Assembly (NCBI RefSeq): GCF_017875735.1
Contig: NZ_JAGGMZ010000001.1
Span: forward strand, 2,790,001-2,854,000
DNA length: 64,000 nt
Direction: 5' to 3'
Source of the DNA: Arthrobacter sp. CAN_C5
GTDB lineage: Bacteria; Actinomycetota; Actinomycetes; Actinomycetales; Micrococcaceae
A model generated the notes under the pieces. That model did not search any database, had not been told where the DNA came from, and saw only the letters and a list, made by a program, of their open reading frames with translations. Shown piece by piece: positions 1,829 to 14,809 of this stretch; position 1 is the stretch's first letter; each line of letters starts with the position of its first letter. The position numbers and the translations under genes were made by a program.

Positions 1829-2092
1829 ATGCTGGTTCGATATTTCGGCGCCGCGCAAGCCGCAGCCGGTGTTGCAGAAGAGCGCCTCGACCTCGCAGCA
1901 GGGTCGCTCGACACGGTGCTCGAGCGCATCACCGCCCGGTACCCGCAGCCGGTTCGGGCTGGCGGGCCGGCGATGCCCGAAGTTCTCGCCCGGAGCAGCT
2001 TCCTCCTGAATGAGGTGGCCCTCCGGGACCGCGGTCGGGTGCTGACCGCCGACGACGTCCTGGACATCCTGCCGCCCTTCGCCGGCGGGTAG
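1829..2092 (+). CDS. moaD: Molybdopterin synthase sulfur carrier subunit MoaD
   Basis: MoaD is a ubiquitin-fold protein that carries sulfur as a C-terminal thiocarboxylate and donates it to cyclic pyranopterin monophosphate in the MoaD-MoaE synthase. The 87-residue product ends in PPFAGG, with the essential Gly-Gly terminus, and its length fits the MoaD/ThiS family. The ATG follows the moaA stop directly, so it is probably translationally coupled. MoaE is not nearby and must be encoded elsewhere. The ThiS alternative is less likely because of the moaA neighbour. Confidence 0.9.
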   Translation: MLVRYFGAAQAAAGVAEERLDLAAGSLDTVLERITARYPQPVRAGGPAMPEVLARSSFLLNEVALRDRGRVLTADDVLDILPPFAGG

Positions 2093-2123
2093 CCTCAGCC
2101 CGTCTCCACCCCCGGACCACGCG

Positions 2124-3302
2124 CTAGACGCGCTCCAACAGCATCGCCGTGCCCTGGCCGACCCCCACGCACATGGTCGCGAGCCCCCGGTCCGCCTGCT
2201 CGCGTTCCATCCGTCCGAGCAGGGTGATAGCGATCCGTGCACCCGATGAACCCAGCGCATGCCCGAGGGCGATGGCGCCGCCGTCGCTGTTCACAATCCC
2301 CGGGTCGAGACCCAGCCTGCGGATGCAGGCCAACGACTGGGTGGCGAACGCCTCATTGAGCTCCACCGCACCGATGTCGTCGATCCCCCAGCCGGCCCGG
2401 GAAAGCACCTTCTCCGTCGCGGGTACCGGACCGATGCCCATGATTTCCGGCGGCACTCCCGCTGATGCGCCGTCCACGACGCGTGCCCGGGGAACCAGAC
2501 CGAACCGCTTCACCGCGCTCTCGCTGGCGACGACGATGGCGGACGCCCCGTCGTTGAGTGAGCTCGCGTTTCCTGCCGTGACGATCCCGCCCGGCCGCAC
2601 GACCGAACGAAGCGAGGCCAAAGTTTCCAGCGATGTACCTGGCCGGGGACCCTCGTCCTGGTCGACAACGCCGGTCTTCGTTTCAACGGGCAGAAGCTCC
2701 TGGGTGAACCGCCCCGCAGCAATGGCCGCCAGGGCATTCTGATGGGATTTCACCGCGAACGCATCAGCATCTTCCCGGGTGATGCCATCCAGCGACGCCA
2801 CTTCTTCAGCGGTTTCCGGCATCGACAGCTTTTGCTGGTCGCTGAAGCGCGGGTTGGTGAATCGCCAACCCAGGGAGGTGTCAGCAATTTCGCCGGGCCG
2901 GGCGAAGGCCTTCACTGGTTTTTCCATCACCCACGGTGCGCGGGTCATGGACTCCACCCCGCCTGCAATGACCACATCAGCGGCACCGGACTTGATCATC
3001 TGGGAGGCGATCAAAATGGCGCTCAGCCCTGACGCGCACAGCCGGTTGACGGTCAGGCCGGGAACCGTGTCCGGCAACCCGGCCAGTAGCGTTGCCATCC
3101 GCGCCACGTTCCGGTTGTCTTCGCCGGACTGGTTGACGCAGCCCAGAATCACTTCGTCGACGGCCTGCGGGTCCACGCCCGCACGTTGCAGGGACTCCCG
3201 GACCACCAAAGCCGCAAGGTCATCCGGTCGCACCGATGACAGGGCGCCACCATAACGGCCGACAGGAGTTCTCACTCCTCCGACAAGAAAAGCTTCATTC
3301 AT
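2124..3302 (-). CDS. Acetyl-CoA C-acyltransferase (thiolase)
   Basis: This is a degradative-type thiolase that would cleave a 3-oxoacyl-CoA, here probably acetoacetyl-CoA, into acetyl-CoA units. The 392-residue protein contains the acyl-accepting Cys89 in NRLCASGL, the His348 motif GGAIALGHALG, and the second catalytic Cys378 in MCVGVGQG. It is the last gene of a leftward unit with the GCDH-like dehydrogenase (40 bp away) and the CaiB-type transferase. An AGGGAC ribosome-binding site precedes the ATG. Substrate chain length cannot be read from the sequence. In this context it would be the final step of the island's pathway. Confidence 0.9.
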   Translation of the reverse strand: MNEAFLVGGVRTPVGRYGGALSSVRPDDLAALVVRESLQRAGVDPQAVDEVILGCVNQSGEDNRNVARMATLLAGLPDTVPGLTVNRLCASGLSAILIASQMIKSGAADVVIAGGVESMTRAPWVMEKPVKAFARPGEIADTSLGWRFTNPRFSDQQKLSMPETAEEVASLDGITREDADAFAVKSHQNALAAIAAGRFTQELLPVETKTGVVDQDEGPRPGTSLETLASLRSVVRPGGIVTAGNASSLNDGASAIVVASESAVKRFGLVPRARVVDGASAGVPPEIMGIGPVPATEKVLSRAGWGIDDIGAVELNEAFATQSLACIRRLGLDPGIVNSDGGAIALGHALGSSGARIAITLLGRMEREQADRGLATMCVGVGQGTAMLLERV

Positions 3303-3342
3303 TGGGTGTCCCTTGGTTGAGGTGTTGGCTGGATGGGCGGGG

Positions 3343-4548
3343 TCAGGCGAACGCGGAGATGCCGGTGATGTCGCGCCCGATCAGCAGCGACTGGATGGAG
3401 TCGGTCCCCTCGTAGGTGTGCACCACCTCCATGTCGGTCATGTGGCGGGCCACATGGTTTTCCAGCAGCAACCCATTCCCACCCAGAATGTCCCGGGCCT
3501 GCAGACAGATCCAGCGAGCCTTCTGGGCGGTATGCATCTTCGCGAGTGAGGCCATGGGGCTGGTCATTTTTCCCTGATCCGCGAGGGTGGCAAGGCGGAA
3601 ACAGATCAACTGCATCGCTGTCAGCTCGGAGAGCATGTTGGCGAGCTTGTTCTGCACCAGCTGGAAGCCCGCGATCGGCTTGCCGAACTGCACCCGCTGC
3701 GTGGCATAAGAAACCGCAGCTTCGTAGGCAGCAATGCCGTGGCCCACGGCTTCCCAGGATGCCCCGCTGCGGGTTGCCGTCAGTACCCGGGTCACGTCCC
3801 TGAAGGAGTGAGCCTCGGCGAGCTTGTTCTCGGCCGGGATGCGGACGTTGTCGATCATCACATCGGGCTGCCAGATGGCCCGCTTGCCGATTTTTCCGGT
3901 GATGAGTTCGGTGGTGTATCCATCCGGGTAGGTGCCGTCGTCATTCTTTTCCAGAATGAAGCCATTGACCTTGTTGTCTGCTTCATCGCGCGCCCAGATG
4001 ATGACGACGTCGGCGATGTTGGCGTTCCCGATCCACCGCTTGCGGCCGTTCAGGACGTAGTGCTCACCTTCCCGTCGGGCTGTGGTTTCAAGCGCCACCG
4101 AGTCCGACCCATGGTCCGGCTCAGTCAGGCCAAACGCGCCAATCTTGTCCAGCGTTGCCATGCCGGGCAGCCACCGCTGCTTCTGTTCCTCGTTGCCGAG
4201 CATGTTGATGGTGCCCATCGACAGCCCCGACTGCACTCCGATGAACGTATTGAGGCTGCCGTCACCGCGCGACATCTCAACGGAAACCATTCCCGCGGCC
4301 AGCCTGCTCAGCCCGGGGCAACCGTAGCCCTCGATGGTGGAACCAACGATTCCGAGCTGGGCAATGCCGGGGACCAGTTCAAAGGGAAACTGCGCAGCTT
4401 CCCAGTAGTCGTTGATCACCGGAAGCACCGATGTATCGACGAAGCCGCGGACTTTCTTCCGGATCAGCACCTCCTCCTCGGACAGGAGCTCATCAAGAAG
4501 GTAGTAGTCAACGTTCACGGGATCAGCGCTCTGGGCGGTAGTGCTCAT
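3343..4548 (-). CDS. Acyl-CoA dehydrogenase, GCDH-like fold but lacking the dicarboxylate-binding residues
   Basis: This is an FAD-dependent acyl-CoA dehydrogenase of 401 residues, closest in pattern to glutaryl-CoA dehydrogenase. It carries the GLTEP FAD/substrate motif, the ARDILGGNG segment, and a catalytic Glu380 in YEGTDSIQ. At the position where human glutaryl-CoA dehydrogenase has Arg94 and Ser98, which bind the glutaryl carboxylate, this protein has Asn100 and Gly104. The paralogue at 10352-11569 keeps Arg and Ser there. I therefore expect a non-dicarboxylic acyl-CoA substrate, though that is inference. It sits between the thiolase and the CaiB-type gene. GAGGACC is the ribosome-binding site. 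Confidence 0.85.
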   Translation of the reverse strand: MSTTAQSADPVNVDYYLLDELLSEEEVLIRKKVRGFVDTSVLPVINDYWEAAQFPFELVPGIAQLGIVGSTIEGYGCPGLSRLAAGMVSVEMSRGDGSLNTFIGVQSGLSMGTINMLGNEEQKQRWLPGMATLDKIGAFGLTEPDHGSDSVALETTARREGEHYVLNGRKRWIGNANIADVVIIWARDEADNKVNGFILEKNDDGTYPDGYTTELITGKIGKRAIWQPDVMIDNVRIPAENKLAEAHSFRDVTRVLTATRSGASWEAVGHGIAAYEAAVSYATQRVQFGKPIAGFQLVQNKLANMLSELTAMQLICFRLATLADQGKMTSPMASLAKMHTAQKARWICLQARDILGGNGLLLENHVARHMTDMEVVHTYEGTDSIQSLLIGRDITGISAFA

Positions 4549-4584
4549 GGGGTCCTCATCTGTCGTCGTCGGGTCTGGGAAAGT

Positions 4585-5787
4585 TCAGCGGGCTGCGGTG
4601 AGCTGCTGGGCAAGCCAGCCGCGCACCAGGTCCGAGCTGGAGCCCAGCATCGGCGGAGCCAAATCGTAGGTGGCAGGCGTCCGGGAGAAACTCACCGGGT
4701 GTCGAACGGTCGGAATCTGTCGTTCGTTCTCGCCCGGGAGTACCACTGGATCAAGGCCCAACCTGTCGGCAAGGTCCACCCCGCCCTTCACATCCTGGAT
4801 GGGCGCACAGGGCAACCCCGCACCGGAAAGGAGGGGGAACCATTCCTCGGCCGAGCGGGCTGCCAGCTGCACTTCGAGGAGGATGCGCAGCTCCGACCGG
4901 TGAGCGTTGCGTTGCTCCGCGGAGGAGAACCGTTGGTCCTGCGCCAGTTCGGGTACCTCAAGCACGGCGCAGAGCCGCGCAAACTGGCCGTTGTTGGCTG
5001 CGGCGATGACCAGCCGGCCGTCACCGGTCAGCATCGGCTCGTAGGGGTAGAGGCTGGGGTGTTCGTTACCCATCCGGGTGGGAATGACACCGCCAGTGAC
5101 ATAGGCCGCGGATTGGTTGACCATCCCCGACAGGGCTGAGGACAGCAGATTCAGCTCCACACGCTGCCCTTCCCCGGTGGTGGTGCGGTGATGGAGCGCT
5201 CCAAGAATTCCCGTGCTGGCGTGCAAGCCAGTGATGACGTCGAACATTGCCAACCCGGCACGGTACGGTTCCGTCTCCTGGCCGCCGGTGAGGCTCATCA
5301 TCCCGGAGGCCGCCTGCACCAGGAGGTCATAACCGGGGAGCGCGGCGCCCGCACCGGTTCCGAAGCCCGTGATCGAGGCGTAGATGACCGTGGGATTGAG
5401 ATCGGCAATCGCGGCGTAGTCGAGACCGTAGCGCTCCAGTCCATGGGGCTTGAAGTTCTCGACGACTATGTCGGCCCGGGCGGCCAGCTGCTGTGCGAGG
5501 GCAAGGTCCGAGGGCTCGTTGAAGTCCAGGGTGATCGAGTGTTTGTTCCGGTTGACGGAGAGGAAGAACGTGCTCTCCTCGTCGCGTACCGGCGGCTTCC
5601 AGGTCCGGGCATCGTCCCCGTCCGGAGACTCGACCTTGATCACTGTGGCGCCCATATCGGCGAGCAGCATCGTGCAGTACGGACCCGCCAGCACCCTGCT
5701 GAAATCCGCAACGACCACTCCGCTCAGCGGACCACTCCCGGTGCGTCCAAAGATTTCGTTCAGCGTGTCCGCTGCAGCTTCCGCCAT
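4585..5787 (-). CDS. CaiB/BaiF family (family III) CoA-transferase
   Basis: Family III CoA-transferases move CoA between acyl-CoA and free acids through an aspartyl mixed anhydride. The 400-residue product has the N-terminal motif ADFSRVLAGPYCTMLLADMGA (about 27-47), the KVESPDGDD segment and VNRNKHSITLD, all typical. Asp183 in FDVITG aligns with the catalytic aspartate. I chose the ATG at 5787 because GGAGG lies six to seven bases upstream; the frame stays open further upstream but has no such site. Next to a glutaryl-CoA dehydrogenase-like pair, a succinyl-CoA:glutarate CoA-transferase role (the SUGCT relatives are of this family) is attractive, but the substrate is not proven by sequence. 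Confidence 0.87.
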   Translation of the reverse strand: MAEAAADTLNEIFGRTGSGPLSGVVVADFSRVLAGPYCTMLLADMGATVIKVESPDGDDARTWKPPVRDEESTFFLSVNRNKHSITLDFNEPSDLALAQQLAARADIVVENFKPHGLERYGLDYAAIADLNPTVIYASITGFGTGAGAALPGYDLLVQAASGMMSLTGGQETEPYRAGLAMFDVITGLHASTGILGALHHRTTTGEGQRVELNLLSSALSGMVNQSAAYVTGGVIPTRMGNEHPSLYPYEPMLTGDGRLVIAAANNGQFARLCAVLEVPELAQDQRFSSAEQRNAHRSELRILLEVQLAARSAEEWFPLLSGAGLPCAPIQDVKGGVDLADRLGLDPVVLPGENERQIPTVRHPVSFSRTPATYDLAPPMLGSSSDLVRGWLAQQLTAAR

Positions 5788-5805
5788 AGTTGATCCTCCA
5801 TCACA

Positions 5806-5821
5806 TGTGTCGTATGTCACC
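5806..5821. promoter_or_regulatory. Weak Crp/GlxR-like palindrome upstream of the CaiB-type gene
   Basis: TGTGT-N6-TCACC matches the TGTGA-N6-TCACA consensus at eight of ten positions and begins 19 bp upstream of the CoA-transferase start. It overlaps a separate CACATGTG palindrome. That is weak alone, but it gains weight from three better matches upstream of other acid-catabolism units in this window. Confidence 0.4.
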
Positions 5822-5928
5822 ACCCTCGCAGAGGCCCAAGCTCGCGTCCAATACAAATTGTGTCGACTATTTTTACGATTTCAGGAATAATCTCTTGACA
5901 CTCTTCCCCATACTTCACACCGATAGCT

Positions 5929-5962
5929 CAATGATTGATAGCTTTTTCAGCCCCAATCATTG
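5929..5962. promoter_or_regulatory. Inverted repeat CAATGATTG / CAATCATTG, candidate LysR operator
   Basis: CAATGATTG (5929-5937) and its exact reverse complement CAATCATTG (5954-5962) flank a 16-bp spacer in the divergent region between the CaiB gene and the lysR gene. The first arm lies inside the shorter palindrome TCAATGATTGA. The 8-mer TCAATGAT recurs at 10266-10273 in the other divergent region of the island. Autoregulation by the adjacent LysR protein is the obvious hypothesis. Confidence 0.45.
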
Positions 5963-5989
5963 ACTCGTGGTAGCAACGCCGACAATAAT
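5960..5989 (+). promoter_or_regulatory. Candidate promoter for lysR, near-leaderless
   Basis: TTGACT (5960-5965) is followed after 18 bp by AATAAT (5984-5989), only eight bases before the lysR ATG at 5998. No clear Shine-Dalgarno precedes that ATG. A transcript starting at or within a few bases of the ATG would be leaderless, as is common in actinobacteria. The -35 overlaps the right arm of the inverted repeat, consistent with autorepression. Confidence 0.5.
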
Positions 5990-5997
5990 TCAGGGTT

Positions 5998-6906
5998 ATG
6001 GAAATACAGCAAGTCCGCGCCTTCCTCGCCGTCGCCCAGGAACTGCACTTCGGCCGTGCCGCGGAACGTCTGCACATCGCCCAGCCACCACTGAGCCGCA
6101 CCATCAAGAATCTTGAACGCGAGCTGGGTGCAACCCTTTTTGAGCGCAGCACCCGAAGCGTGAAACTCACGACTGCGGGCCAGGCGCTGCTGGCCCCGGC
6201 AGAGGAGATCATGTCAGCCTGTCGCAGGGCGCGATCGGCAGTGACTTCGGCAGGCAAGGGTGAGACCGGGAGGGTCCGGGTGGCTTTCGCGGGTGTGTCC
6301 TCCCACGTCATGGTGGGCAAGCTGGCCAAGCTGGTCAGGCAGACCCACCCCGGAATCGACATTGAGCTATACAGCTCCTACTACGCCGTCCCTGCCTTGA
6401 ATGAGGTCATTGCGGGCACCATGGACATCGGCCTGGGCCGGTGGAGCTTCCTACCCTCGGGGATCGAATCGCGGACCGTGGCCCGGGAGACTCTGGTGAT
6501 TGCGCTGCCGTCAAACCATAGGCTGGCTCACCGGACGTCGGTCCGGATGACAGATTTTGCCACCGAGGATTTTGTTGCCTTGCCGCCGGACCCGGGGGCA
6601 GTCCTCAGGGAACATCTCGATCGGCTTTCCCACGGTGCTGGCTTTGTGCCCTCGATCGTGCAGGCTGCACCCGATACGTCCACGCTGCTGTCGTTGGTCG
6701 CCGCAGACATCGGCTGCGCCCTTACTGTGTCCTCTGTCCCGGACAACGTGTCCTACCCGGGGGTGGTGTTTGTCCCCCTTGAGGATCCGGCCGAACCCAT
6801 CCTGCTGCGTCTGATCTGGCGCAGCGATGACAGCAGTCCAGCGCTGCGCGAGGTCCTGCGCCTTTCAGAGGCCCTGATGCCTTCGCCGGAGCCGTCCCCG
6901 GCCTGA
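5998..6906 (+). CDS. LysR family transcriptional regulator
   Basis: The 302-residue protein has the standard N-terminal winged helix-turn-helix (about 1-60, with HFGRAAERLHIAQPPLSRTI). A periplasmic-binding-protein-like effector domain follows from about residue 90 to the end. LysR regulators usually bind a T-N11-A dyad and sense a pathway metabolite. The gene lies divergent to the CaiB operon and convergent with the TRAP transporter operon, in the middle of the island, so it is the likely specific regulator. The inducer is unknown and may be the imported acid or its CoA ester. Its promoter appears almost leaderless. Confidence 0.93.
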   Translation: MEIQQVRAFLAVAQELHFGRAAERLHIAQPPLSRTIKNLERELGATLFERSTRSVKLTTAGQALLAPAEEIMSACRRARSAVTSAGKGETGRVRVAFAGVSSHVMVGKLAKLVRQTHPGIDIELYSSYYAVPALNEVIAGTMDIGLGRWSFLPSGIESRTVARETLVIALPSNHRLAHRTSVRMTDFATEDFVALPPDPGAVLREHLDRLSHGAGFVPSIVQAAPDTSTLLSLVAADIGCALTVSSVPDNVSYPGVVFVPLEDPAEPILLRLIWRSDDSSPALREVLRLSEALMPSPEPSPA

Positions 6907-6928
6907 GCGGGCCGAATCCCGCCCAGGC
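6901..6928. terminator. Hairpin between convergent lysR and TRAP permease
   Basis: GCCTG-a-GCGGG pairs with CCCGC-c-CAGGC around a six-base loop, giving ten of eleven paired positions. It overlaps the lysR stop codon. There is no strong T-run on either side, so it may act in both directions but with uncertain strength. Confidence 0.5.
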
Positions 6929-6942
6929 CGCACCTCCAGTGT

Positions 6943-8970
6943 TTACTCTGAGAGCGACTGCAGCCGGCCCTCCGCGTGGGTGGGCGCCGCCGCCGTCGGG
7001 GTTTGTCCGTCCTTGCGGAGGGCAATGAAGGTCAGGAGTAAAACCACACCCAGCAGCACCCCACCGAGGGCCGCGGCGGCCACTCCCGGCATCATCAGGC
7101 TGACACCGGCGACAGCTGAGACGACGCGCAGCAGCATCGGCAACCGCCGGCCCATGCCAAGCACCCACCCTTCGAAGGCACAGGCCAGAGCGTAGACACC
7201 GATCAGGCTGAGACTGAACGCCATCACAATCTCCGGCAACGGGGCCTGGGCAACCAGCGCCGGATTCAGCGCAAACCCAAACGGCACGATGTACTTCACT
7301 GCCCCCAGCTTCATTGCGGAGACGCTGGTCTTCATCGGGTCGGAACCGGCGATCCCGGCGGCGGCAAACGACGCGAGCGCCACCGGCGGCGTGATGTAGG
7401 AGACTGCGGCCCAATAGATGACGAACAGGTGGGCTGCGATCGGATCGATACCGAGTTCGACGACGGCGGGGACCATGACAATTGCCAGGAACACGTAGGC
7501 CGCGGAAACGGTCATACCCATGCCCAGGATGAAGCAGGTCACGGCACCGGCAATGAGCATCAGCACCACGTTGTCCCCGACCAGGACCAGCAGTTCCCTG
7601 GCCAGTGAGAGAGTTACCCCGGACATGTTGAGCCCGCCAACAATGAGCCCCACCCCCGCGATGATGCCCAGGATTTCGCTGATGGTCCTGCCGCAGTCGA
7701 AAAGCATATCGACGAACCGGCGTGGCGTGAGCCTGCCCTCCCGCTTGACCATCCCGTAGACCACCAGGGCACCGGCCACCCAGAACGGTGCCTGCGTTTC
7801 CGTGGTGACCACCAGAAGGGCGGTCAACATGACAAGTGAGGCAAGGTACGGCCAGCCCGAGGCCATCACCGGACCAAACCTGGGCAGTTTGGACTTCGGC
7901 AGCCCCGCCAGGCCCTTCCTGGAGGAATAGGCATCAATCTGAAGGTAGATGCCCACGTAGTACAGGATTGCGGGAATAGTCGCGGCGATCAGAATTTCCT
8001 TGTAGGGGACACCCACAAAGGAAATCATCAGGAACGCCGCGGTGCCCATCACCGGCGGGGTAATGGATCCGCCGGATGACGCTGTGGCCTCAACCGCCCC
8101 TGCGTACCGGGGCGAAAACCCGGCCTTGATCATGGCCGGGATGGTCATGGGCCCGGTGGTGAGCACATTCGAGACGGCGCTGCCGCTCATCATGCCCATG
8201 GACGCGCTGCTGGCCACCGACACCTTGGCGGCGCCGCCGCGTGCACCACCAAACAGGGATTGGGCCAGATTGTGGAAGAACGTCGATCCGCCGGTGTGCC
8301 GGAGAATCACCCCGAAGAGCAGGAATCCGATCAGGATGCTGGCTGCGGTTTGCAGCGGCAGGCCCATGATCCCTTCGACGCCCACCGCATGGATCTGGGC
8401 TGTGGTCCGGAAATCATGGGAGATGCCCTGCAGAAATCCGAAGGGCATCCGGGAAGAGAACATCGGATACACAGAGAACAGGAACGCGATGACCGCAACC
8501 GCTGACCCGGCTGTGCGCCGCAATGCCTCGATCGCCAGCCCCCACAGCACCACGCTGAAGACGGCTGCCAGCGGCGGCGCCGCGTAATCCCATCCCAGAT
8601 TCAGGATGGTCTCGGCGTTGACGCCGAAGTAGACGGTGACCACCAGCGTCGCGGCGAACAGAACGACGTCGTACCAGGCCAGCGCGGCAGGCCTTGGTCG
8701 AGGCCCGACACCATCGTCAGCGGCCGGCAACGTCACGGACTTTGACGCCGGGAAGATGATGAACGCGATGGCCAGGAAGCAGGTCAGCATGTAGTACAGA
8801 TAGGCGTGCGTGAGCAGTGTGACACCGAAGAGATCCCAAAAGAACACCTGGTTCATTGAGAGCAGGATGCCGAGAACAGTGAACACCACCACCACTGCCC
8901 GCCAGGGGCCGTTCAGCCGCGGCGGCGCATCGGTTGTCGTCCCAGCGGGAGGCGCAGTCTCAATCGTCAA
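6943..8970 (-). CDS. TRAP transporter permease, fused small and large subunits (TAXI-TRAP)
   Basis: This is the membrane part of a tripartite ATP-independent periplasmic transporter, with DctQ- and DctM-like regions fused in one chain of about 675 residues. Many hydrophobic helices are visible through the whole length, with the motifs GGSITPPVMGTAAF and YWAAVSYITPPVALASFAAAG that mark the large subunit. It would use a cation gradient to import the acid delivered by the binding protein encoded just upstream. I chose the TTG at 8970, which overlaps the end of the binding-protein gene by 11 bp and has GGAAGGAAG upstream. The frame stays open further into that gene, but those residues look non-genic. 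Confidence 0.88.
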   Translation of the reverse strand: MTIETAPPAGTTTDAPPRLNGPWRAVVVVFTVLGILLSMNQVFFWDLFGVTLLTHAYLYYMLTCFLAIAFIIFPASKSVTLPAADDGVGPRPRPAALAWYDVVLFAATLVVTVYFGVNAETILNLGWDYAAPPLAAVFSVVLWGLAIEALRRTAGSAVAVIAFLFSVYPMFSSRMPFGFLQGISHDFRTTAQIHAVGVEGIMGLPLQTAASILIGFLLFGVILRHTGGSTFFHNLAQSLFGGARGGAAKVSVASSASMGMMSGSAVSNVLTTGPMTIPAMIKAGFSPRYAGAVEATASSGGSITPPVMGTAAFLMISFVGVPYKEILIAATIPAILYYVGIYLQIDAYSSRKGLAGLPKSKLPRFGPVMASGWPYLASLVMLTALLVVTTETQAPFWVAGALVVYGMVKREGRLTPRRFVDMLFDCGRTISEILGIIAGVGLIVGGLNMSGVTLSLARELLVLVGDNVVLMLIAGAVTCFILGMGMTVSAAYVFLAIVMVPAVVELGIDPIAAHLFVIYWAAVSYITPPVALASFAAAGIAGSDPMKTSVSAMKLGAVKYIVPFGFALNPALVAQAPLPEIVMAFSLSLIGVYALACAFEGWVLGMGRRLPMLLRVVSAVAGVSLMMPGVAAAALGGVLLGVVLLLTFIALRKDGQTPTAAAPTHAEGRLQSLSE

Positions 8971-10075
8971 GGTGTTCTTCCTTCCATGCGGTCCATTCCT
9001 GGGCCAGGTTTTCCTTGTCAGCCGGTCCGATGAATGTTTCCCAGCCTTCCTGCAATGCGGCCTGCCGTTCGACAAGTTCGGCATTGCGTTGTTCAGCCTC
9101 TTCGGTCCACATGCCCTGTTCCTCGAGATACCTCACGGTCCCGGGATGAAACGGGACCACCAGGGGCTCGGTGAGCACCTTGTCGAGGGCAAACTCACCA
9201 GCGGACGGTGTGGTGTTTTCATAGCGGTCAAAGTTTTCGTCCATGGCTTTCACCAGGTCATAGACCTGCTGCTCATCGGTGTGCGCATAGGTGGAGATCG
9301 GGACGGTGTAGGCGAAATTTTTTGCCGAGTCCCCCTCCTCCATTCCCGGGGCTCCCGAAAACTCGCCGATGGTCACCATCGGGGCGATCGCGTTGACGGC
9401 TGCCATCTTTTCGGGGGAATCGTCGTTCATGCTCATCCAGTCGACGTCCACCGTGCTGGCGAGCTCTTCCAGGTTGGAGCCATAGGCACTGCTGAACAGG
9501 ACATCCAGCCGACCGGTCTTCAGCGCCTCGGTCTGGTCGCTGTAACTTACGTCGACGGGTTCGACGTCATCCCAGGTCAGGCCGCCGTAGGCAAGGTAGG
9601 CCTCCAGCTTGAGGTTAATTGAGGTATTGGCTGTGACCCGGGGGAATTTTTTTCCTTTGAGGTCCTCGAAGGTTTCGATGCCAGCGTCGGTGCGGGTCAT
9701 CAGCCCATAATTTCCCATGGGTGCCCACACCACGCGGAGATCCTGGGGGCCCCAGTTCTCGCTGGAGAAGTCCTGGATGCCCTCGAATCCGAAGTAGTAT
9801 TCGTCCCCCATCCGGCTGAACTGAGCGCTGCCAGCCTTCAGTGGAGCAACCCGCCCGATCGATGTGTCGGAGGTGAGGATACGAACCTGGGTGCCCTGCA
9901 CACGGGTGAGACTGTCCGATACAGCGGCAAGGTCGTTGTAGGTTCCGGTTCCCACACCGTAGGTAGTCATCACCAGCTGGGAATTCGGGTCAGCGCGGCT
10001 GTCGGGCGAACTGCTGGTAACGATGCCAGCGACGAGGACTCCGGCCAGCACGGTACAGGTCAAGATTTTCTTCAT
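8960..10075 (-). CDS. TAXI family TRAP transporter solute-binding protein
   Basis: The 371-residue product starts with MKK, a hydrophobic core and a small-residue region that together read as a Sec signal peptide (about 1-29). No lipobox cysteine is present, so how the binding protein is retained at the membrane of a Gram-positive cell is unclear. The mature start TTYGVGTGTYNDLAAVSDSL is typical of the TAXI family, which binds glutamate, 2-oxoglutarate and other carboxylates. It overlaps the permease gene by 11 bp and would deliver substrate to it. It is divergent from the second GCDH-like operon, which suggests that the imported acid is the substrate of the island. Confidence 0.88.
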   Translation of the reverse strand: MKKILTCTVLAGVLVAGIVTSSSPDSRADPNSQLVMTTYGVGTGTYNDLAAVSDSLTRVQGTQVRILTSDTSIGRVAPLKAGSAQFSRMGDEYYFGFEGIQDFSSENWGPQDLRVVWAPMGNYGLMTRTDAGIETFEDLKGKKFPRVTANTSINLKLEAYLAYGGLTWDDVEPVDVSYSDQTEALKTGRLDVLFSSAYGSNLEELASTVDVDWMSMNDDSPEKMAAVNAIAPMVTIGEFSGAPGMEEGDSAKNFAYTVPISTYAHTDEQQVYDLVKAMDENFDRYENTTPSAGEFALDKVLTEPLVVPFHPGTVRYLEEQGMWTEEAEQRNAELVERQAALQEGWETFIGPADKENLAQEWTAWKEEHLDD

Positions 10076-10284
10076 TGAAAGCCCCTAGGAGATCCGGCTG
10101 CCGGCGATATGCCTTACTGCCATGGACCAGTTGCCTGAAAGTGTTATCTACGTCACTCTCCCAGAAGGGTCACCCATACTTCCAATACCTAATTCGCCGG
10201 AGATTCATACCCTGAATGAAGTGATGGACAGGACGCCCTCTCGAAGATTTGTTTTCGATTGGGTATCAATGATGCCCGGCTTTG

Positions 10285-10305
10285 GTATTGGATTAGCTGT
10301 AATAC
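10285..10305. promoter_or_regulatory. LysR-type T-N11-A dyad (GTATT-N11-AATAC)
   Basis: GTATT at 10285-10289 and AATAC at 10301-10305 are perfect inverted arms separated by 11 bp, the classical LysR-family recognition geometry. The site lies 47 bp upstream of the GCDH-like dehydrogenase start and about 210 bp from the binding-protein start. It is therefore well placed to control the rightward operon. Confidence 0.6.
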
Positions 10306-10314
10306 TCCTGAGAG

Positions 10315-10330
10315 AGTGAGGGCAGTCACT
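10315..10330. promoter_or_regulatory. Crp/GlxR-type palindrome AGTGA-N6-TCACT
   Basis: A perfect palindrome with the GTGA-N6-TCAC core of the Crp/GlxR consensus; only the outermost bases differ (A/T instead of T/A). It is ten bases right of the LysR dyad and 21 bp upstream of the dehydrogenase ATG. This close position suggests repression or a transcription start overlapping the site. Confidence 0.6.
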
Positions 10331-10351
10331 ACATTTTTGAAGGAGACCCCC

Positions 10352-11569
10352 ATGACGGCAGCACTCAACGAATCCCCTGTCGCTTCGGCACTACCGGATG
10401 TCGCGAACGTCCCCGACACCTCCGACGTCCTGCAGCTCAACGGACTACTCAGTACCCAGGAGCTAGCCGTTCAGGCGACGGTCAGGGCCTTTGTGGACAC
10501 CAGGATCAAGCCCAACATCGCCCAGTGGTACGAGAGCGCTTCCTTCCCCACCGAAATAATGCACGAGCTCGGTGACCTGGGAGTGCTGGGCATGCACCTT
10601 CACGGGTACGGCTGCCCCGGGCGCACGGCTGTCGAATACGGCGTGGCCGCCATGGAACTGGAAGCCGGTGATTCAGGCATCCGGACGCTCGTCAGTGTGC
10701 AGGGCTCACTGGCGATGAGCGCCATCCACAAGTGGGGCTCCGAAGAGCAGAAGAATCATTGGCTGCCGTCCATGGCTACCGGCCGCACGATCGGTTGCTT
10801 CGGTCTCACGGAGCCAACCGCAGGCAGCGACCCATCCGCCATGAAGACGTTCGCCCGCAAGGAGGGAGCGTCCTGGATTCTCAGTGGCGAGAAGCGCTGG
10901 ATTGGTCTGGCGTCTATTGCCCAGGTGGCTGTGATCTGGGCAATGACGGACGACGGTGTTCGCGGGTTCCTGGTGCCCACTGACTCCCCCGGCTTCGTGG
11001 CAACCCCAATCACCTCCAAGCTCTCCATGCGCGCCTCGGTTCAGTGCGACATCGTCATGACGGATATCCGGCTCCCCGACACCGCAATCCTCCCCGGGGC
11101 AAAAGGCTTGCGCGGCCCGTTCTCCTGCCTGAACGAGGCGCGGTACGGAATTATCTGGGGTGCCATGGGTGCGGCCCGTGACAGCTACCAGGCCGCACTG
11201 GACTACTCACAGGGACGTCTGCAGTTCGACAAGCCGCTTGCCTCCTATCAACTCACCCAGGAGAAACTGGTCAACATGGTGCTGGAAATCCAGAAGGGTG
11301 TCCTGCTCGCCATTCACATCGGCCGGCTAAAGGACGCAGGCACCCTGCGGCCTGAACAGATTTCAGTAGGCAAACTCAACAATGTGCGGGAAGCCATCGC
11401 CATCGCACGCGAGGCTCGGACCGTTCTGGGCGGCAACGGCGTGACCCTCGACTATTCGCCACTGCGCCACGCCAACAACTTGGAGAGTGTGCGCACTTAT
11501 GAGGGTACTGATGAGGTGCACACCCTGATTCTGGGCAGCCACCTCACCGGCATTCCTGCGTTCAGGTAG
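10352..11569 (+). CDS. gcdH: Glutaryl-CoA dehydrogenase
   Basis: This 405-residue flavoprotein follows the human and bacterial glutaryl-CoA dehydrogenase pattern closely. It has DSGIRTLVSVQGSLAM, where Arg111 and Ser115 align with human Arg94 and Ser98 that hold the distal carboxylate. It also has GCFGLTEP (148-155), ARYGIIWGAMGA (263-274), and the catalytic Glu384 in YEGTDEVH. The expected reaction is oxidation and decarboxylation of glutaryl-CoA to crotonyl-CoA. The ATG at 10352 was chosen for its AAGGAG site at 10340-10345. Ten bases separate it from the enoyl-CoA hydratase gene, and the 3-hydroxyacyl-CoA dehydrogenase follows, giving the next two steps. A related dicarboxylic acyl-CoA remains possible. 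Confidence 0.88.
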   Translation: MTAALNESPVASALPDVANVPDTSDVLQLNGLLSTQELAVQATVRAFVDTRIKPNIAQWYESASFPTEIMHELGDLGVLGMHLHGYGCPGRTAVEYGVAAMELEAGDSGIRTLVSVQGSLAMSAIHKWGSEEQKNHWLPSMATGRTIGCFGLTEPTAGSDPSAMKTFARKEGASWILSGEKRWIGLASIAQVAVIWAMTDDGVRGFLVPTDSPGFVATPITSKLSMRASVQCDIVMTDIRLPDTAILPGAKGLRGPFSCLNEARYGIIWGAMGAARDSYQAALDYSQGRLQFDKPLASYQLTQEKLVNMVLEIQKGVLLAIHIGRLKDAGTLRPEQISVGKLNNVREAIAIAREARTVLGGNGVTLDYSPLRHANNLESVRTYEGTDEVHTLILGSHLTGIPAFR

Positions 11570-11579
11570 AGGCGCCGTC

Positions 11580-12356
11580 ATGGAATTCACCCTGATCAGC
11601 GCCGAGTCCATCAACGGGTTGGGCATCATCACCATCAATCGCCCGGCGAGCCGCAATGCCCTCAACCGGGTTGTCCTGGACGAGATCGCCGGCGCCCTGG
11701 ACCTCTTCCTTGACGACGAAGGAGTGGGCGCGGTGATCTTTACCGGTGCCGGGGGGAAGGCGTTTATTGCTGGCGCCGACATCAACCAGTTAGCCAACTA
11801 CACCCTGGTTGATGGCCTCTCCGGCAGGATGCAGCGGCTCTACGACACCATCGAGGCTTACGAGCTGCCGACCATCGCCGCCATCAACGGGTATGCGCTC
11901 GGTGGGGGGCTCGAACTTGCGATGGCGTGTGACATCCGGATAGCGGTAGAAGGTAGCCGGTTTGCCCTGCCGGAAACCAATCTTGGCATCATTCCCGGCG
12001 CGGGTGGAACTCAGCGGTTGTCGAGGCTGGTGGGCCGGGGGCGCGCCGTGGAACTCATCCTGACCGGGAGGCTGGTTGACGCACCCGAGGCTCTGGGCAT
12101 GGGGCTGGTGACCGACGTCGTCCCGTCGTCGGACCTGATGGATACGGTGAGGAAAACCGCCGACACCATCCTGGCGAAGGGTCCGCTGGCAGTCCGCCTG
12201 GCCAAAATGGTGGTGAAACACGGCTTTGACACCGATCAGCAGACCGGGCTTCTCCTGGAGCGGCTTGCGCAGTCGCTCCTGTACACCACCCAGGACAAAG
12301 CAGAAGGCACCGCAGCATTCCTCGAAAAACGCTCAGCCAGATACGTAGGAAAGTAG
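11580..12356 (+). CDS. Enoyl-CoA hydratase/crotonase
   Basis: A 258-residue crotonase-fold protein that would hydrate crotonyl-CoA, or another 2-enoyl-CoA, to the 3-hydroxyacyl-CoA. It has the oxyanion-hole segment FIAGADINQL and both catalytic glutamates: Glu112 in GGGLELA and Glu132 in PETNLGIIPGAGGTQRL. The full catalytic set argues for a true hydratase rather than an isomerase-like paralogue. It lies between the glutaryl-CoA dehydrogenase (10 bp before) and the 3-hydroxyacyl-CoA dehydrogenase (2 bp after), so the three are surely co-transcribed. Confidence 0.92.
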   Translation: MEFTLISAESINGLGIITINRPASRNALNRVVLDEIAGALDLFLDDEGVGAVIFTGAGGKAFIAGADINQLANYTLVDGLSGRMQRLYDTIEAYELPTIAAINGYALGGGLELAMACDIRIAVEGSRFALPETNLGIIPGAGGTQRLSRLVGRGRAVELILTGRLVDAPEALGMGLVTDVVPSSDLMDTVRKTADTILAKGPLAVRLAKMVVKHGFDTDQQTGLLLERLAQSLLYTTQDKAEGTAAFLEKRSARYVGK

Positions 12357-12358
12357 CT

Positions 12359-13246
12359 ATGGAAACGACACCTGATCTTCAGAAAATTCACCGCATCCTC
12401 GTCGTGGGTGCGGGCGCCATGGGCTCCCAAATCGGATTGGTCGGCGCGCTGGCCGGGTATCAGGTCACCGTCCAGGACATCTCGGAGCGGATGCTGGCGC
12501 CGGCGAGTGAGGAGCTCTCACTGCGGCTCGACCGCAGCGTTGCCAAAGGCCGCCTCGAACGCGGCGCAGCGGACGCTGCGTTGAACCGGATGAGCTTCAC
12601 CACCAGCCTCAGGGATGCCGCCTCGACTGCTGACTTCGTCATCGAGGCAGCAGTGGAAAAACTGGATATCAAACGGGAGATCTTCCGGGAACTCGATGAG
12701 TACGCACCAGCCCATGCAGTGTTGGCTACCAATTCCTCCACGCTGGGCTCATCGAAAGTGGCGGATGCCACCGGGCGCCCGGACCGGGTCTGCAACATGC
12801 ACTTCTTCAATCCAGCCCTGGTCATGAAATGCGTCGAGGTGGTGCGCCACGAGAGCACCTCCCAGCAGACAGTGGACACCGCAATGGGCCTCGCCGCACG
12901 GCTGGGCAAAGCGCCAATCCTGATCAACCGCGAGATCCCCGGGTTCGTCGCGAACCGCCTGCTGGGCGCGTTGCGCACCGAGGCGCTGAAACTGTACGAC
13001 GGCGGCATAGCGAGTTTTGAAGACATTGACACGGCGGCCAAGACTGCGTTGGGTCACCCCATGGGCCCCTTCGAATTGATGGACCTGGTGGGCCTCGATG
13101 TCGCCTACCTGATCAGGCAGGCCCATCATCAGGAGACCGGGGATCCCGCCGACCTGCCGCATCCGGCCCTTACCGAGCTCTACGAAGCCGGGCACTACGG
13201 CCGAAAGACCGGGAAGGGCTGGTACGAGTACACCGAGGGCAGCTAG
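12359..13246 (+). CDS. 3-hydroxyacyl-CoA dehydrogenase (3-hydroxybutyryl-CoA dehydrogenase type)
   Basis: A 295-residue NAD(P)-dependent dehydrogenase with the Rossmann motif GAGAMGSQIG (17-26). The catalytic His148 lies in MHFFNPA with Glu160 as partner, followed by the C-terminal helical domain with PGFVANRLLG. It is the length of the single-domain PaaH/Hbd type, which oxidises short-chain 3-hydroxyacyl-CoA to the 3-oxo form. As the last gene of the operon it would make acetoacetyl-CoA, the substrate of the thiolase at the other end of the island. A strong terminator follows. Confidence 0.92.
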   Translation: METTPDLQKIHRILVVGAGAMGSQIGLVGALAGYQVTVQDISERMLAPASEELSLRLDRSVAKGRLERGAADAALNRMSFTTSLRDAASTADFVIEAAVEKLDIKREIFRELDEYAPAHAVLATNSSTLGSSKVADATGRPDRVCNMHFFNPALVMKCVEVVRHESTSQQTVDTAMGLAARLGKAPILINREIPGFVANRLLGALRTEALKLYDGGIASFEDIDTAAKTALGHPMGPFELMDLVGLDVAYLIRQAHHQETGDPADLPHPALTELYEAGHYGRKTGKGWYEYTEGS

Positions 13247-13292
13247 AGGCACCCCGCTCGCGCCCTGTCACACCGTTCAGTCATGATCCTCA

Positions 13293-13321
13293 AACGCGCC
13301 CCTGCTGAACAGGGGCGCGTT
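13293..13321. terminator. Bidirectional terminator hairpin
   Basis: AACGCGCCCCTG and CAGGGGCGCGTT form a perfect 12-bp stem with a five-base loop between two convergent genes: the 3-hydroxyacyl-CoA dehydrogenase (+) and the M16 protease (-). Short A/T flanks on both sides allow termination in either direction. Confidence 0.85.
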
Positions 13322-13342
13322 CGAAGATTCTGTGCAGGACCG

Positions 13343-14809
13343 CTAGTGACCGAAGTCCGTCGGTGTGTCGAACGGTCCGACGACCGTGATGGTGCGCGGA
13401 GCGGCAGCCAGCTCGGCCGCCAGTTCCCGCACCTGATCCCCGGTGACCGCGTTGATCCGGGCCAGCACCTCGTCCAGTCCCAGGAACTCCCCCGACACCA
13501 GTTCAGCCCTGCCCAGCCGCGACATCCGCGAGCCACTGTCCTCCAGCGCCATCACCATGCCCCCGGAGAGCTGCCCAACCGCGCGGCGCAGCTCGTCGGC
13601 TGAGATGCCCTCAGCGGCGAGCCGGTCCAGTTCGGCACCGAGCAGGTCGATCACCTGCCCGGTCTTCGCTGGGGAACAGCCCGCGTACATCGCGAAGTAC
13701 CCGGCATCCGCGTAGGAGGCCGAGAAAGAGTAGGTCGAGTAGACCAGTCCCCGCTTTTCCCGGATCTCCTGGAACAGCCGCGATGACATTCCCCCGCCCA
13801 GCACAGCGTTCAGGACGCTCATGACGAACCGCCGCTCGTCGGTCGCGGTAATCGATGGGCAGCCCACCAGGATGTTCGCCTGCTCCACCGCGCGGCGGAT
13901 CACTCGGATCCCGCCGGTACTCTCGATGGCGACCGGCGTATCGGACCGCCGGGCAACGGGCAGCGCATCCTCGTCGAGGGTCCATCCGGCGGTGCGCAGC
14001 GCGTCGAGCACCAGGGAGCAGACCACCTCGTGGTCCAGTCCGCCTGCTGCGGTGACCACGAGTTCGGAGGGACGGTAGTACCTGCGGTAGTGGTCCAGGA
14101 CCGACTCGCGGGGTACCGCCTTGATCGCCTCGGGTGTGCCGCCGATGGGCCGGCCCAGTGGGTGTGACCCCAGGACCGCCTCGACGAACTCTTCGTGCGC
14201 GACGTCGGCGGGGTCGTCGCTGTCCATGGCGATTTCCTCGAGAATGACATCGCGTTCCTGCTCCAGCTCGTCGGCGTCGATCACCGCGCTGGTCACCATG
14301 TCAGCGATGACGTCGATCGCCATGGGCAGGTCGGCGTCCAGCACGCGGGCAAAGTAGCAGGTGTGCTCCTTCGCCGTGGCAGCGTTGCACTCCCCGCCCA
14401 CCTCATCGAACGCCTCGGCAATGTCGAGTGCCGTGCGTCGGGTGGTGCCCTTGAAGAGCAGGTGCTCCAGGAAGTGGGTTGAGCCGTGCTGGCCCGCCGC
14501 CTCATCGCGGGATCCGACGCCCACCCAGAATCCGATGGTCGCCGACCGTTGGCCGGGCATCGCCTCGGTGAGGACACGCACACCGCCGGGGAGCACCGAA
14601 CGGCGCACGACGGCGCCGCCCAGGGTTCCAGCGACAAGGGTCGGGTCCTGCGCCTGGGCCGAGCCGCCGGCCGTGGGCGCAGGGGTGGGCACCAACGGCA
14701 GGAGGATGGAGGAAGGGCCGGTGCGATTCTCGTGTGAAACGGCCAACGGCCCCGTTCCCGACGAAGTGTCGGGAACGGAGCCGGAGGCGTTGTTAGCTAA
14801 TACAGCCAT
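13343..14809 (-). CDS. M16 family zinc metallopeptidase
   Basis: A pitrilysin-type protease of 488 residues with the inverted zinc motif HFLEH (His112, Glu115, His116) and the third ligand Glu192 in LEEIAM at the expected distance. It has the two M16 half-domains of a subunit of about 420 residues. The first 65 or so residues are Pro/Ser/Ala-rich and not family-like, so a later start is possible. The ATG at 14809 lies three bases after the pnp stop, however, which favours coupling. The pnp-M16 order is widespread in Gram-positive bacteria. Its substrate is not known. Confidence 0.88.
   Translation of the reverse strand: MAVLANNASGSVPDTSSGTGPLAVSHENRTGPSSILLPLVPTPAPTAGGSAQAQDPTLVAGTLGGAVVRRSVLPGGVRVLTEAMPGQRSATIGFWVGVGSRDEAAGQHGSTHFLEHLLFKGTTRRTALDIAEAFDEVGGECNAATAKEHTCYFARVLDADLPMAIDVIADMVTSAVIDADELEQERDVILEEIAMDSDDPADVAHEEFVEAVLGSHPLGRPIGGTPEAIKAVPRESVLDHYRRYYRPSELVVTAAGGLDHEVVCSLVLDALRTAGWTLDEDALPVARRSDTPVAIESTGGIRVIRRAVEQANILVGCPSITATDERRFVMSVLNAVLGGGMSSRLFQEIREKRGLVYSTYSFSASYADAGYFAMYAGCSPAKTGQVIDLLGAELDRLAAEGISADELRRAVGQLSGGMVMALEDSGSRMSRLGRAELVSGEFLGLDEVLARINAVTGDQVRELAAELAAAPRTITVVGPFDTPTDFGH

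Follow-up and report, generated by a model that had tools for sequence, protein, structure and literature searches.

A 64,000-nucleotide stretch of Arthrobacter sp. CAN_C5 (contig NZ_JAGGMZ010000001.1, positions 2,790,001 to 2,854,000; hereafter the window) carries a nine-gene island that we read as an acquired, LysR-controlled system for the uptake and β-oxidation of short α,ω-dicarboxylates, centred on adipate (C6) within a C5-C7 range and furnished with a glutaryl-CoA arm. We put the probability of this reading at about two in three, and infer the substrate, the CoA donor and the inducer from sequence comparisons. The initial annotation had described an island for glutarate utilization. Its general picture of dicarboxylate uptake, CoA transfer and β-oxidation to acetyl-CoA is supported, and reading frames and family searches recovered the thiolase, CaiB, LysR, TRAP permease, TAXI protein, glutaryl-CoA dehydrogenase (GCDH), hydratase and dehydrogenase where it had placed them. 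A second acyl-CoA dehydrogenase, here called ACAD1, had been overlooked. The evidence for a dicarboxylate substrate is good; that for glutarate as the main or defining one is weaker, and glutarate was dropped as the lead substrate because of the CaiB tree, the PcaF/PaaJ-type thiolase and the linkage to cyclohexanone genes; on the same three grounds, glutarate as the sole substrate was set aside.

In the proposed pathway, the TAXI-TRAP transporter would bring adipate into the cell, CaiB would transfer CoA from succinyl-CoA onto it, and ACAD1 would oxidize adipyl-CoA to 2,3-didehydroadipyl-CoA. The hydratase and the 3-hydroxyacyl-CoA dehydrogenase would then yield 3-oxoadipyl-CoA, to be cleaved by the PaaJ-like thiolase into acetyl-CoA and succinyl-CoA, the latter priming the next round. 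Glutaryl-CoA, derived from glutarate or pimelate, would be converted by GCDH to crotonyl-CoA and onwards to acetyl-CoA with the same hydratase and dehydrogenase as the adipyl arm, and both arms would be governed by one LysR regulator through a common upstream core. Five thiolase genes were found in the genome, and the acetoacetyl-CoA of the glutaryl arm would be cleaved by the island enzyme or by another of these. Glutarate, or pimelate via glutaryl-CoA, is a plausible second substrate because GCDH lies within the island and is preceded by the upstream core.

The strongest clue to the substrate of CaiB and ACAD1 is their linkage to genes of a cyclohexanone route. Named genomes were scanned with an alignment of ACAD1, and the best 80 of 248 matches, which were kept, gave 79 loci; some of the fetched stretches end near the genes, and a missing gene is not proof of absence. 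ACAD1 is immediately preceded by CaiB in 46 of the 79 loci and immediately followed by a thiolase in 38, with both present in 32, where 25 of the thiolases share at least 59% identity with that of the window and seven share 46-49%. The core unit is LysR/CaiB-ACAD1, usually with a thiolase. At least two of four cyclohexanone-route genes occur in 14 of the 46 CaiB loci and in none of the 33 loci without CaiB, and a similar contrast holds for a cyclohexanone-type monooxygenase (12/46 vs 0/33), for TAXI/TRAP genes (10/46 vs 0/33) and for GCDH (16/46 vs 1/33, the other 30 CaiB loci being without it in the stretches fetched). The best PDB match of two of the monooxygenases (loci L087 and L126) is cyclohexanone monooxygenase, at 885 and 780 bits, with phenylacetone monooxygenase reaching at most 524 bits; ten more were assigned by their 63-92% identity to the enzyme of L087. 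The neighbours at these loci are a short-chain dehydrogenase, a zinc alcohol dehydrogenase, an α/β hydrolase and an aldehyde dehydrogenase, which we take to be the set expected for the conversion of cyclohexanol to adipate.

The accessory genes are not distributed evenly over the 46 CaiB loci. None of them combines GCDH (16 loci) with two or more cyclohexanone genes (14 loci; Fisher p=0.0007) or TAXI/TRAP (10 loci) with such genes (p=0.02), and GCDH and TAXI/TRAP are often found side by side in one locus (7/10, p=0.02); these p values are rough, because the rows are related. Where adipate is made internally from cyclohexanone, importer and GCDH would be unneeded, and a cell importing mixed diacids would profit from both. 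Two loci (L060 and L068, at about 13.4-17.6 kb) carry a TctC-TctB-TctA-TctC set and a CoA_trans-type gene behind their GCDH, CaiB, ACAD1 and thiolase genes, which may serve this pathway as another kind of diacid importer, and other CaiB loci hold an MFS gene together with MaoC and short-chain dehydrogenase genes.

CaiB matches PF02515 over its length (379.8 bits, cut-off 23.3) and retains Asp183, presumably the nucleophile, as is typical of family III CoA-transferases. Its top NCBIfam model is succinate--glutarate CoA-transferase (NF052585), at 331 bits; with this model, all ten CaiBs tested score 296-377 bits irrespective of their neighbours, and such scores were discarded as a means of telling contexts apart. 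The CaiB tree has 69 rows and comes from a quick search in which no branch set the outgroup apart. One of its branches, with support 100, has on one side the 48 ACAD1-linked CaiBs, that of the window included, together with five CaiBs from TAXI loci of family f6 and the one from L116. Ten of the 11 CaiBs that are paired with GCDH and lack ACAD1, among them a paralogue from the same genome (L050), lie on the opposite side, and the window enzyme does not group with them; several of these GCDH-only rows come from 4-kb stretches, in which a distant ACAD1 could be missed. On one contig of Arthrobacter sp. H16F315, two CaiB-ACAD1-LysR copies with identical ACAD1 and CaiB lie ~49 kb apart (L084 and L085), as would result from a recent duplication of large size or from faulty assembly.

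The thiolase is of the 3-oxoadipyl-CoA (PcaF/PaaJ) type. It reaches 525-528 bits with PcaF (3-oxoadipyl-CoA thiolase) models, compared with 380 for BktB and 363 for FadA, and its first two PDB matches are a chain named only thiolase (430 bits) and a β-ketoadipyl-CoA thiolase (425 bits). A second PcaF-like thiolase in the genome (L168), a PaaJ candidate with 73.6% identity to the window enzyme, lies on one stretch with PaaZ (1022 bits against a cut-off of 563) and with a PaaK frame that is truncated where the stretch ends (485 bits, cut-off 646), and so places a close relative in a 3-oxoadipyl-CoA pathway context. This candidate scores 519-528 bits with the PcaF models, equal to the window thiolase, and the PcaF cut-off therefore seems too strict for this lineage.

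ACAD1, the proposed adipyl-CoA dehydrogenase, has plant acyl-CoA oxidase 4 (ACX4; 346 bits) as its best solved match, and carries Asn100 where GCDH has its Arg. In a search for a residue marking the CaiB-linked ACAD1s, 12 columns set them apart from 10 Rubrobacter/Chloroflexota-type rows, with Arg82 as the only basic residue among these (48/48 vs 0/10); such markers were rejected, as none of the columns holds against the full set of 33 rows without CaiB. In an 84-row tree (quick search), the cyclohexanone-linked rows form two separate groups and the TAXI-linked rows three, with the TAXI-linked L091, L095 and L096 falling inside an 18-row group that holds eight cyclohexanone-linked rows (support 85). 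Such mixing fits one pathway that is fed either from within or by import. A LysR-CaiB-ACAD1-thiolase set also occurs in a metagenome-assembled genome labelled Alphaproteobacteria (L110), placed in the tree among Microbacteriaceae and Arthrobacter rows and probably a mis-binned contig.

The other acyl-CoA dehydrogenase of the island (ACAD2) is a GCDH by its closest homologues, with Mycobacterium smegmatis 3SWO as the nearest structure (552 bits), and by the presence of Arg111 and Glu384, which we take to be the carboxylate-binding and catalytic residues. The Arg named in the initial annotation is thus in place, and the Ser said to accompany it is Thr112: the motif reads 'DSGIRT', as opposed to Arg-Ser in two mycobacterial GCDH structures, and the GCDH paralogue in the same genome likewise has Arg-Thr. 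With the model 'glutaryl-CoA dehydrogenase Acd', the island enzyme stays below the cut-off (161 vs 470 bits). That paralogue belongs to a second GCDH-CaiB pair of overlapping genes, 74% and 52% identical to those of the island (G000:C1, about 463660-466070; L050:8659-11066). The pair adjoins genes for a dihydroxy-acid dehydratase, an FAA hydrolase, a short-chain dehydrogenase, an FAD oxidoreductase and an MFS protein, on a stretch that also holds a frame 30% like the TRAP permease, and resembles a portion of a sugar-acid pathway more than a set for simple glutarate use.

The transporter consists of a TAXI binding protein (TIGR02122, 214.9 bits, cut-off 84.35) and a single fused TRAP membrane subunit (TIGR02123, 582.2 bits, cut-off 320.65). 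In a 33-row tree of binding proteins (quick search), the 12 from ACAD1 loci, counting those of the window and its near copy L059, are separated by a branch with support 99 from 21 others, 20 of which come from family f6. The binding proteins of ACAD1 loci thus stand apart as a separate group and, as judged from sequence, are candidates for adipate import. Tyr94 and Tyr123 mark this group (12/12 vs 0/21) and could not be tied to a ligand, and ligand assignment from residues was abandoned. Within family f6, four loci (L030, L034, L036 and L043) have TAXI-TRAP genes near CaiBs of neighbouring groups, some with other thiolases and acyl-CoA dehydrogenases, and are perhaps TAXI-linked CoA-transferase routes for other acids.

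A GTATTGG core emerged when the divergent regions of the window were set against those of Arthrobacter sp. H14 (L067). It is present in 26 of 31 LysR/CaiB regions (the near copy L059 left out), or 24 of 29 without the two discovery regions, whereas shuffled regions contain it in 0.67 cases on average and in at most four (200 rounds), a comparison that overstates significance because the regions share a common ancestry. The sequence is GTATTGGAC at each of the 26 sites; L116 was counted as a miss on its second LysR/CaiB region, and its first region has the core. GTATTGG also lies in the LysR-GCDH gap of all eight of the loci L060-L066 and L068. In the window it occurs at 5848, 10182 and 10285, three of its six occurrences in 64 kb and each on the strand of the following gene, and the site at 10285 has the downstream AAT seen in most other sites. 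The common core suggests that both arms belong to one LysR regulon, and LysR is presumably the protein that binds it. A perfect 10-bp dyad between LysR and CaiB, TCAATGATTG-N16-CAATCATTGA, was set aside as an operator, since it is equalled in 4 of 300 shuffles and L067 retains one half only.

Several observations weigh against the adipate-centred reading. The window genome has no close cyclohexanone monooxygenase (best match 36% over 211 residues), and adipate would therefore need an outside or other source; the monooxygenase aside, the cyclohexanone-type neighbours match general families only. Only 32 of the 46 CaiB loci have a thiolase directly behind ACAD1, among them 11 of the 14 cyclohexanone-type and 4 of the 10 TAXI/TRAP loci, which makes the thiolase less firmly tied to the unit than CaiB, and the window thiolase stays below the PcaF/PaaJ equivalog cut-offs (597-605 bits). 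CaiB falls short of the NF052585 equivalog cut-off of 750 bits, and its tree is long-branched with an unsure root and has the GCDH-only L116 inside the ACAD1-linked group. Relatives of ACAD1 with 61-68% identity are also found in fatty-acid-type loci without CaiB, and no residue splits the CaiB-linked ACAD1s from all 33 rows without CaiB. In the regulatory regions, the cores at 10182 and 10285 lack the AC common to all 26 LysR/CaiB sites, and GTATTGG is absent upstream of the TAXI operons in L091, L095, L096, L114, L116, L120 and L128. Finally, VcGluP, a TAXI protein of Vibrio cholerae, showed no response to adipate (PMC11574862).

Three other explanations compete with the adipate-centred one. 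A glutarate island, with CaiB as succinyl-CoA:glutarate CoA-transferase, GCDH as the key enzyme and ACAD1 as an accessory, is unlikely, though it ranks ahead of the remaining two. It draws on the compact arm formed by GCDH, hydratase and dehydrogenase, the frequency of GCDH among TAXI/TRAP loci, the best NCBIfam model of CaiB and the glutarate regulon of Pseudomonas putida, which comprises LysR, gcdH and a family III CoA-transferase (PMC10870600). The model does not discriminate, however, and the tree groups CaiB with the ACAD1-linked enzymes, apart from nearly all GCDH-only ones; acetoacetyl-CoA does not require a PaaJ-type thiolase, and one related locus (L037) combines ACAD1, CaiB, LysR, hydratase, TRAP and TAXI genes with no GCDH found in the 20 kb fetched.

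An improbable alternative is another or longer diacid, either a C6 compound that is substituted or unsaturated or a longer chain in the range suberate-azelate, with adipyl-CoA and glutaryl-CoA as mere intermediates. Such a substrate would be handled by the same enzymes; AdpC, the binding protein of a tripartite tricarboxylate system, accepts diacids from adipate to azelate (PMC5812351), and a TctCBA system lies in the neighbourhood of L060 and L068. The linkage to the cyclohexanone route indicates C6, however, and the C8-C12 diacids of β-proteobacteria are handled by PimCD-like pairs (PMC12543098), whose models give the two window dehydrogenases 54-78 bits against cut-offs of 624-653. Oxidation of a short-chain monocarboxylate of the butyrate or crotonate type is very unlikely and the least probable of all. 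It could appeal to the resemblance of ACAD1 to plant ACX4 and Staphylococcus FadE (338 bits, cut-off 600) and to ACAD1 kin in loci that encode a FadB-like fusion, such as the fatty-acid-oxidation-like L073 with its 791-aa neighbour of dehydrogenase and hydratase domains. The 33 loci without CaiB nevertheless have neither TAXI nor cyclohexanone genes in the stretches fetched, and the one thiolase searched from a fatty-acid-type locus (L072) matches PRK07661 best, at 536 bits, with the PcaF models unlisted at the threshold used; GCDH would moreover be pointless in such a pathway.

The island, 11.2 kb in size, is an insertion at the junction between moaA/moaD and an M16 peptidase gene; family searches of the flanks gave moaA and a moaD-like frame ending at 2092 on the left and the peptidase gene on the right. 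In a close relative with an empty site (G420), the alignment to the window runs to 2094 and starts again at 13342. The peptidase gene is present in 38 of 38 same-genus genomes, and of the 30 such loci that were fetched, 26 have moaA at a distance of <450 bp, the exceptions being the window genome, the island carrier G417, G399 and G113. The GC content is 0.624 over 2014-13300 and 0.656 for the remaining window, and the lowest value among 79 overlapping 11.3-kb stretches to the right of the island is 0.647. No direct repeat flanking the island was seen among the 20 of 32 repeat families listed, and no tRNA was found in the 64-kb window. The insertion probably came by horizontal transfer.

The spread of the genes is patchy. 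ACAD1 is found in 4 of 38 same-genus genomes, the window genome included (E <= 1e-120; 100, 100, 63 and 52% identity), and in 4 of 294 genomes sampled from the order, again counting its own (E <= 1e-150), while a TAXI relative occurs in 16 of 396 genomes, own included (E <= 1e-30). The empty-site relative G420 carries a 63% ACAD1 copy and a 63% CaiB at another place. The closest named record, Arthrobacter sp. Bz4 (L059), matches all nine genes in order at 95-100% identity, and Arthrobacter sp. H14 does so at 76-89%; with the order kept in both, the arrangement is not due to chance. A scaffold of the Bacillota species Sporosarcina beigongshangi (scaffold18, L069) holds GCDH-hydratase-dehydrogenase-ACAD1-thiolase at 68-80% identity to the window genes, and reflects a recent transfer or a contaminant contig.

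Table 1. Genes and regulatory regions of the island, in window coordinates.
Feature	Position	Strand	Basis and details
Whole island, nine genes	2095..13340		between moaA/moaD (749-2092) and the M16 peptidase gene (13343-14809)
Thiolase, 3-oxoadipyl-CoA (PcaF/PaaJ) type	2124..3302	-	Cys89, His348, Cys378; PcaF models, PDB, PaaJ candidate of same genome
ACAD1, acyl-CoA dehydrogenase (ACX4/FadE-like), proposed adipyl-CoA dehydrogenase	3343..4548	-	Glu380 at catalytic-base position, Asn100
CaiB, family III CoA-transferase, proposed succinyl-CoA:adipate/glutarate CoA-transferase	4585..5787	-	Asp183; PF02515, tree
Divergent LysR/CaiB region	5788..5997		GTATTGGAC (minus strand) 5846-5854, core 5848-5854; dyad 5928-5963
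LysR regulator	5998..6906	+	PF00126, PF03466
Fused TRAP permease	6943..8970	-	TIGR02123; proposed TTG start within TAXI stop region
TAXI-family substrate-binding protein	8960..10075	-	TIGR02122; tree
Divergent TAXI/GCDH region	10076..10351		two GTATTGG cores: 10182 towards TAXI, 10285 towards GCDH
ACAD2, glutaryl-CoA dehydrogenase (GCDH)	10352..11569	+	Arg111, Thr112, Glu104, Glu384; numbered from ATG at 10352
Enoyl-CoA hydratase	11580..12356	+	Glu112/Glu132
3-Hydroxyacyl-CoA dehydrogenase	12359..13246	+	family searches

The operon-like spacing noted in the initial annotation was borne out (Table 1). On the minus strand, 36 bp separate CaiB from ACAD1 and 40 bp ACAD1 from the thiolase, on the plus strand the gaps are 10 bp between GCDH and hydratase and 2 bp between hydratase and dehydrogenase, and the proposed TTG start of the permease (8970) overlaps the TAXI stop. 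The roles of Cys89, His348 and Cys378 of the thiolase, Asp183 of CaiB, Glu112/Glu132 of the hydratase, Glu380 of ACAD1 and Glu384 of GCDH are those we assume from family motifs.

The island shares parts with several known systems. The phenylacetate PaaF-PaaH-PaaJ route passes through 2,3-didehydroadipyl-CoA and has a homologous thiolase, with its genes located elsewhere in the same genome (L168). The dca adipate cluster has a CoA-transferase of two subunits together with an MFS permease and a porin; family searches found none of these among the nine island genes, which instead provide a family III CoA-transferase and TAXI-TRAP. In function, dcaAKIJP of Acinetobacter baylyi is comparable, with adipate uptake and conversion to 2,3-didehydroadipyl-CoA (PMC12337976). 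The GcdR (LysR)-gcdH-PP_0159 regulon of P. putida likewise unites LysR, GCDH and a family III CoA-transferase, to which the island adds a second acyl-CoA dehydrogenase, a PaaJ-like thiolase and TAXI-TRAP, and the island CoA-transferase groups with ACAD1-linked ones (PMC10870600). In o-phthalate clusters of denitrifiers, TAXI-TRAP genes also lie near a succinyl-CoA-dependent dicarboxylate activation (succinyl-CoA:phthalate CoA-transferase), yet the substrate there is aromatic and is decarboxylated, in contrast to the β-oxidation of the island (PMC13040137). Genes of cyclohexanol/cyclohexanone (chn) clusters are attached to CaiB-ACAD1 in 14 relatives; the window island is without them, and has importer and GCDH instead. 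In a Geobacillus study, a CoA-transferase gene adjoins an acyl-CoA dehydrogenase gene and both are upregulated on adipate, the dehydrogenase gene carrying a deletion that the authors consider disabling (PMC13135583).

How diacids longer than C4 enter bacterial cells was described in a 2024 eLife paper as not understood, adipate bound by a tripartite tricarboxylate system aside, and the paper itself proposes a TRAP transporter for azelate (PMC10945470). A TAXI system for 2-oxoglutarate is cited in PMC11574862, and a TRAP transporter for itaconate has been reported (PMC12599236). Among the matches listed in our literature search, which did not extend to most subscription papers, none ties a TAXI-TRAP to glutarate or adipate uptake. 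A dedicated TAXI-TRAP subfamily may exist in Actinomycetota that imports adipate (C5-C7 diacids) and has been inherited together with a family III CoA-transferase and an adipyl-CoA dehydrogenase of the ACX4-like kind, with one LysR operator joining the even-chain (adipyl) and odd-chain (glutaryl) arms; this is a tentative proposal, for which we consider the odds to be just short of even.

Adipate is a monomer of nylon 66, poly(butylene adipate-co-terephthalate) (PBAT) and polyurethanes, and the TAXI group of the ACAD1 loci offers a short list of candidate importers that are possibly new. Should the adipate-centred reading be wrong, the island would be an ordinary, well-formed catabolic island. 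In engineered P. putida, mutations are needed to link the adipyl arm with the glutaryl one; a native regulon driving both arms, if true, would solve the coupling problem described for pimelate in that host (PMC10870600).

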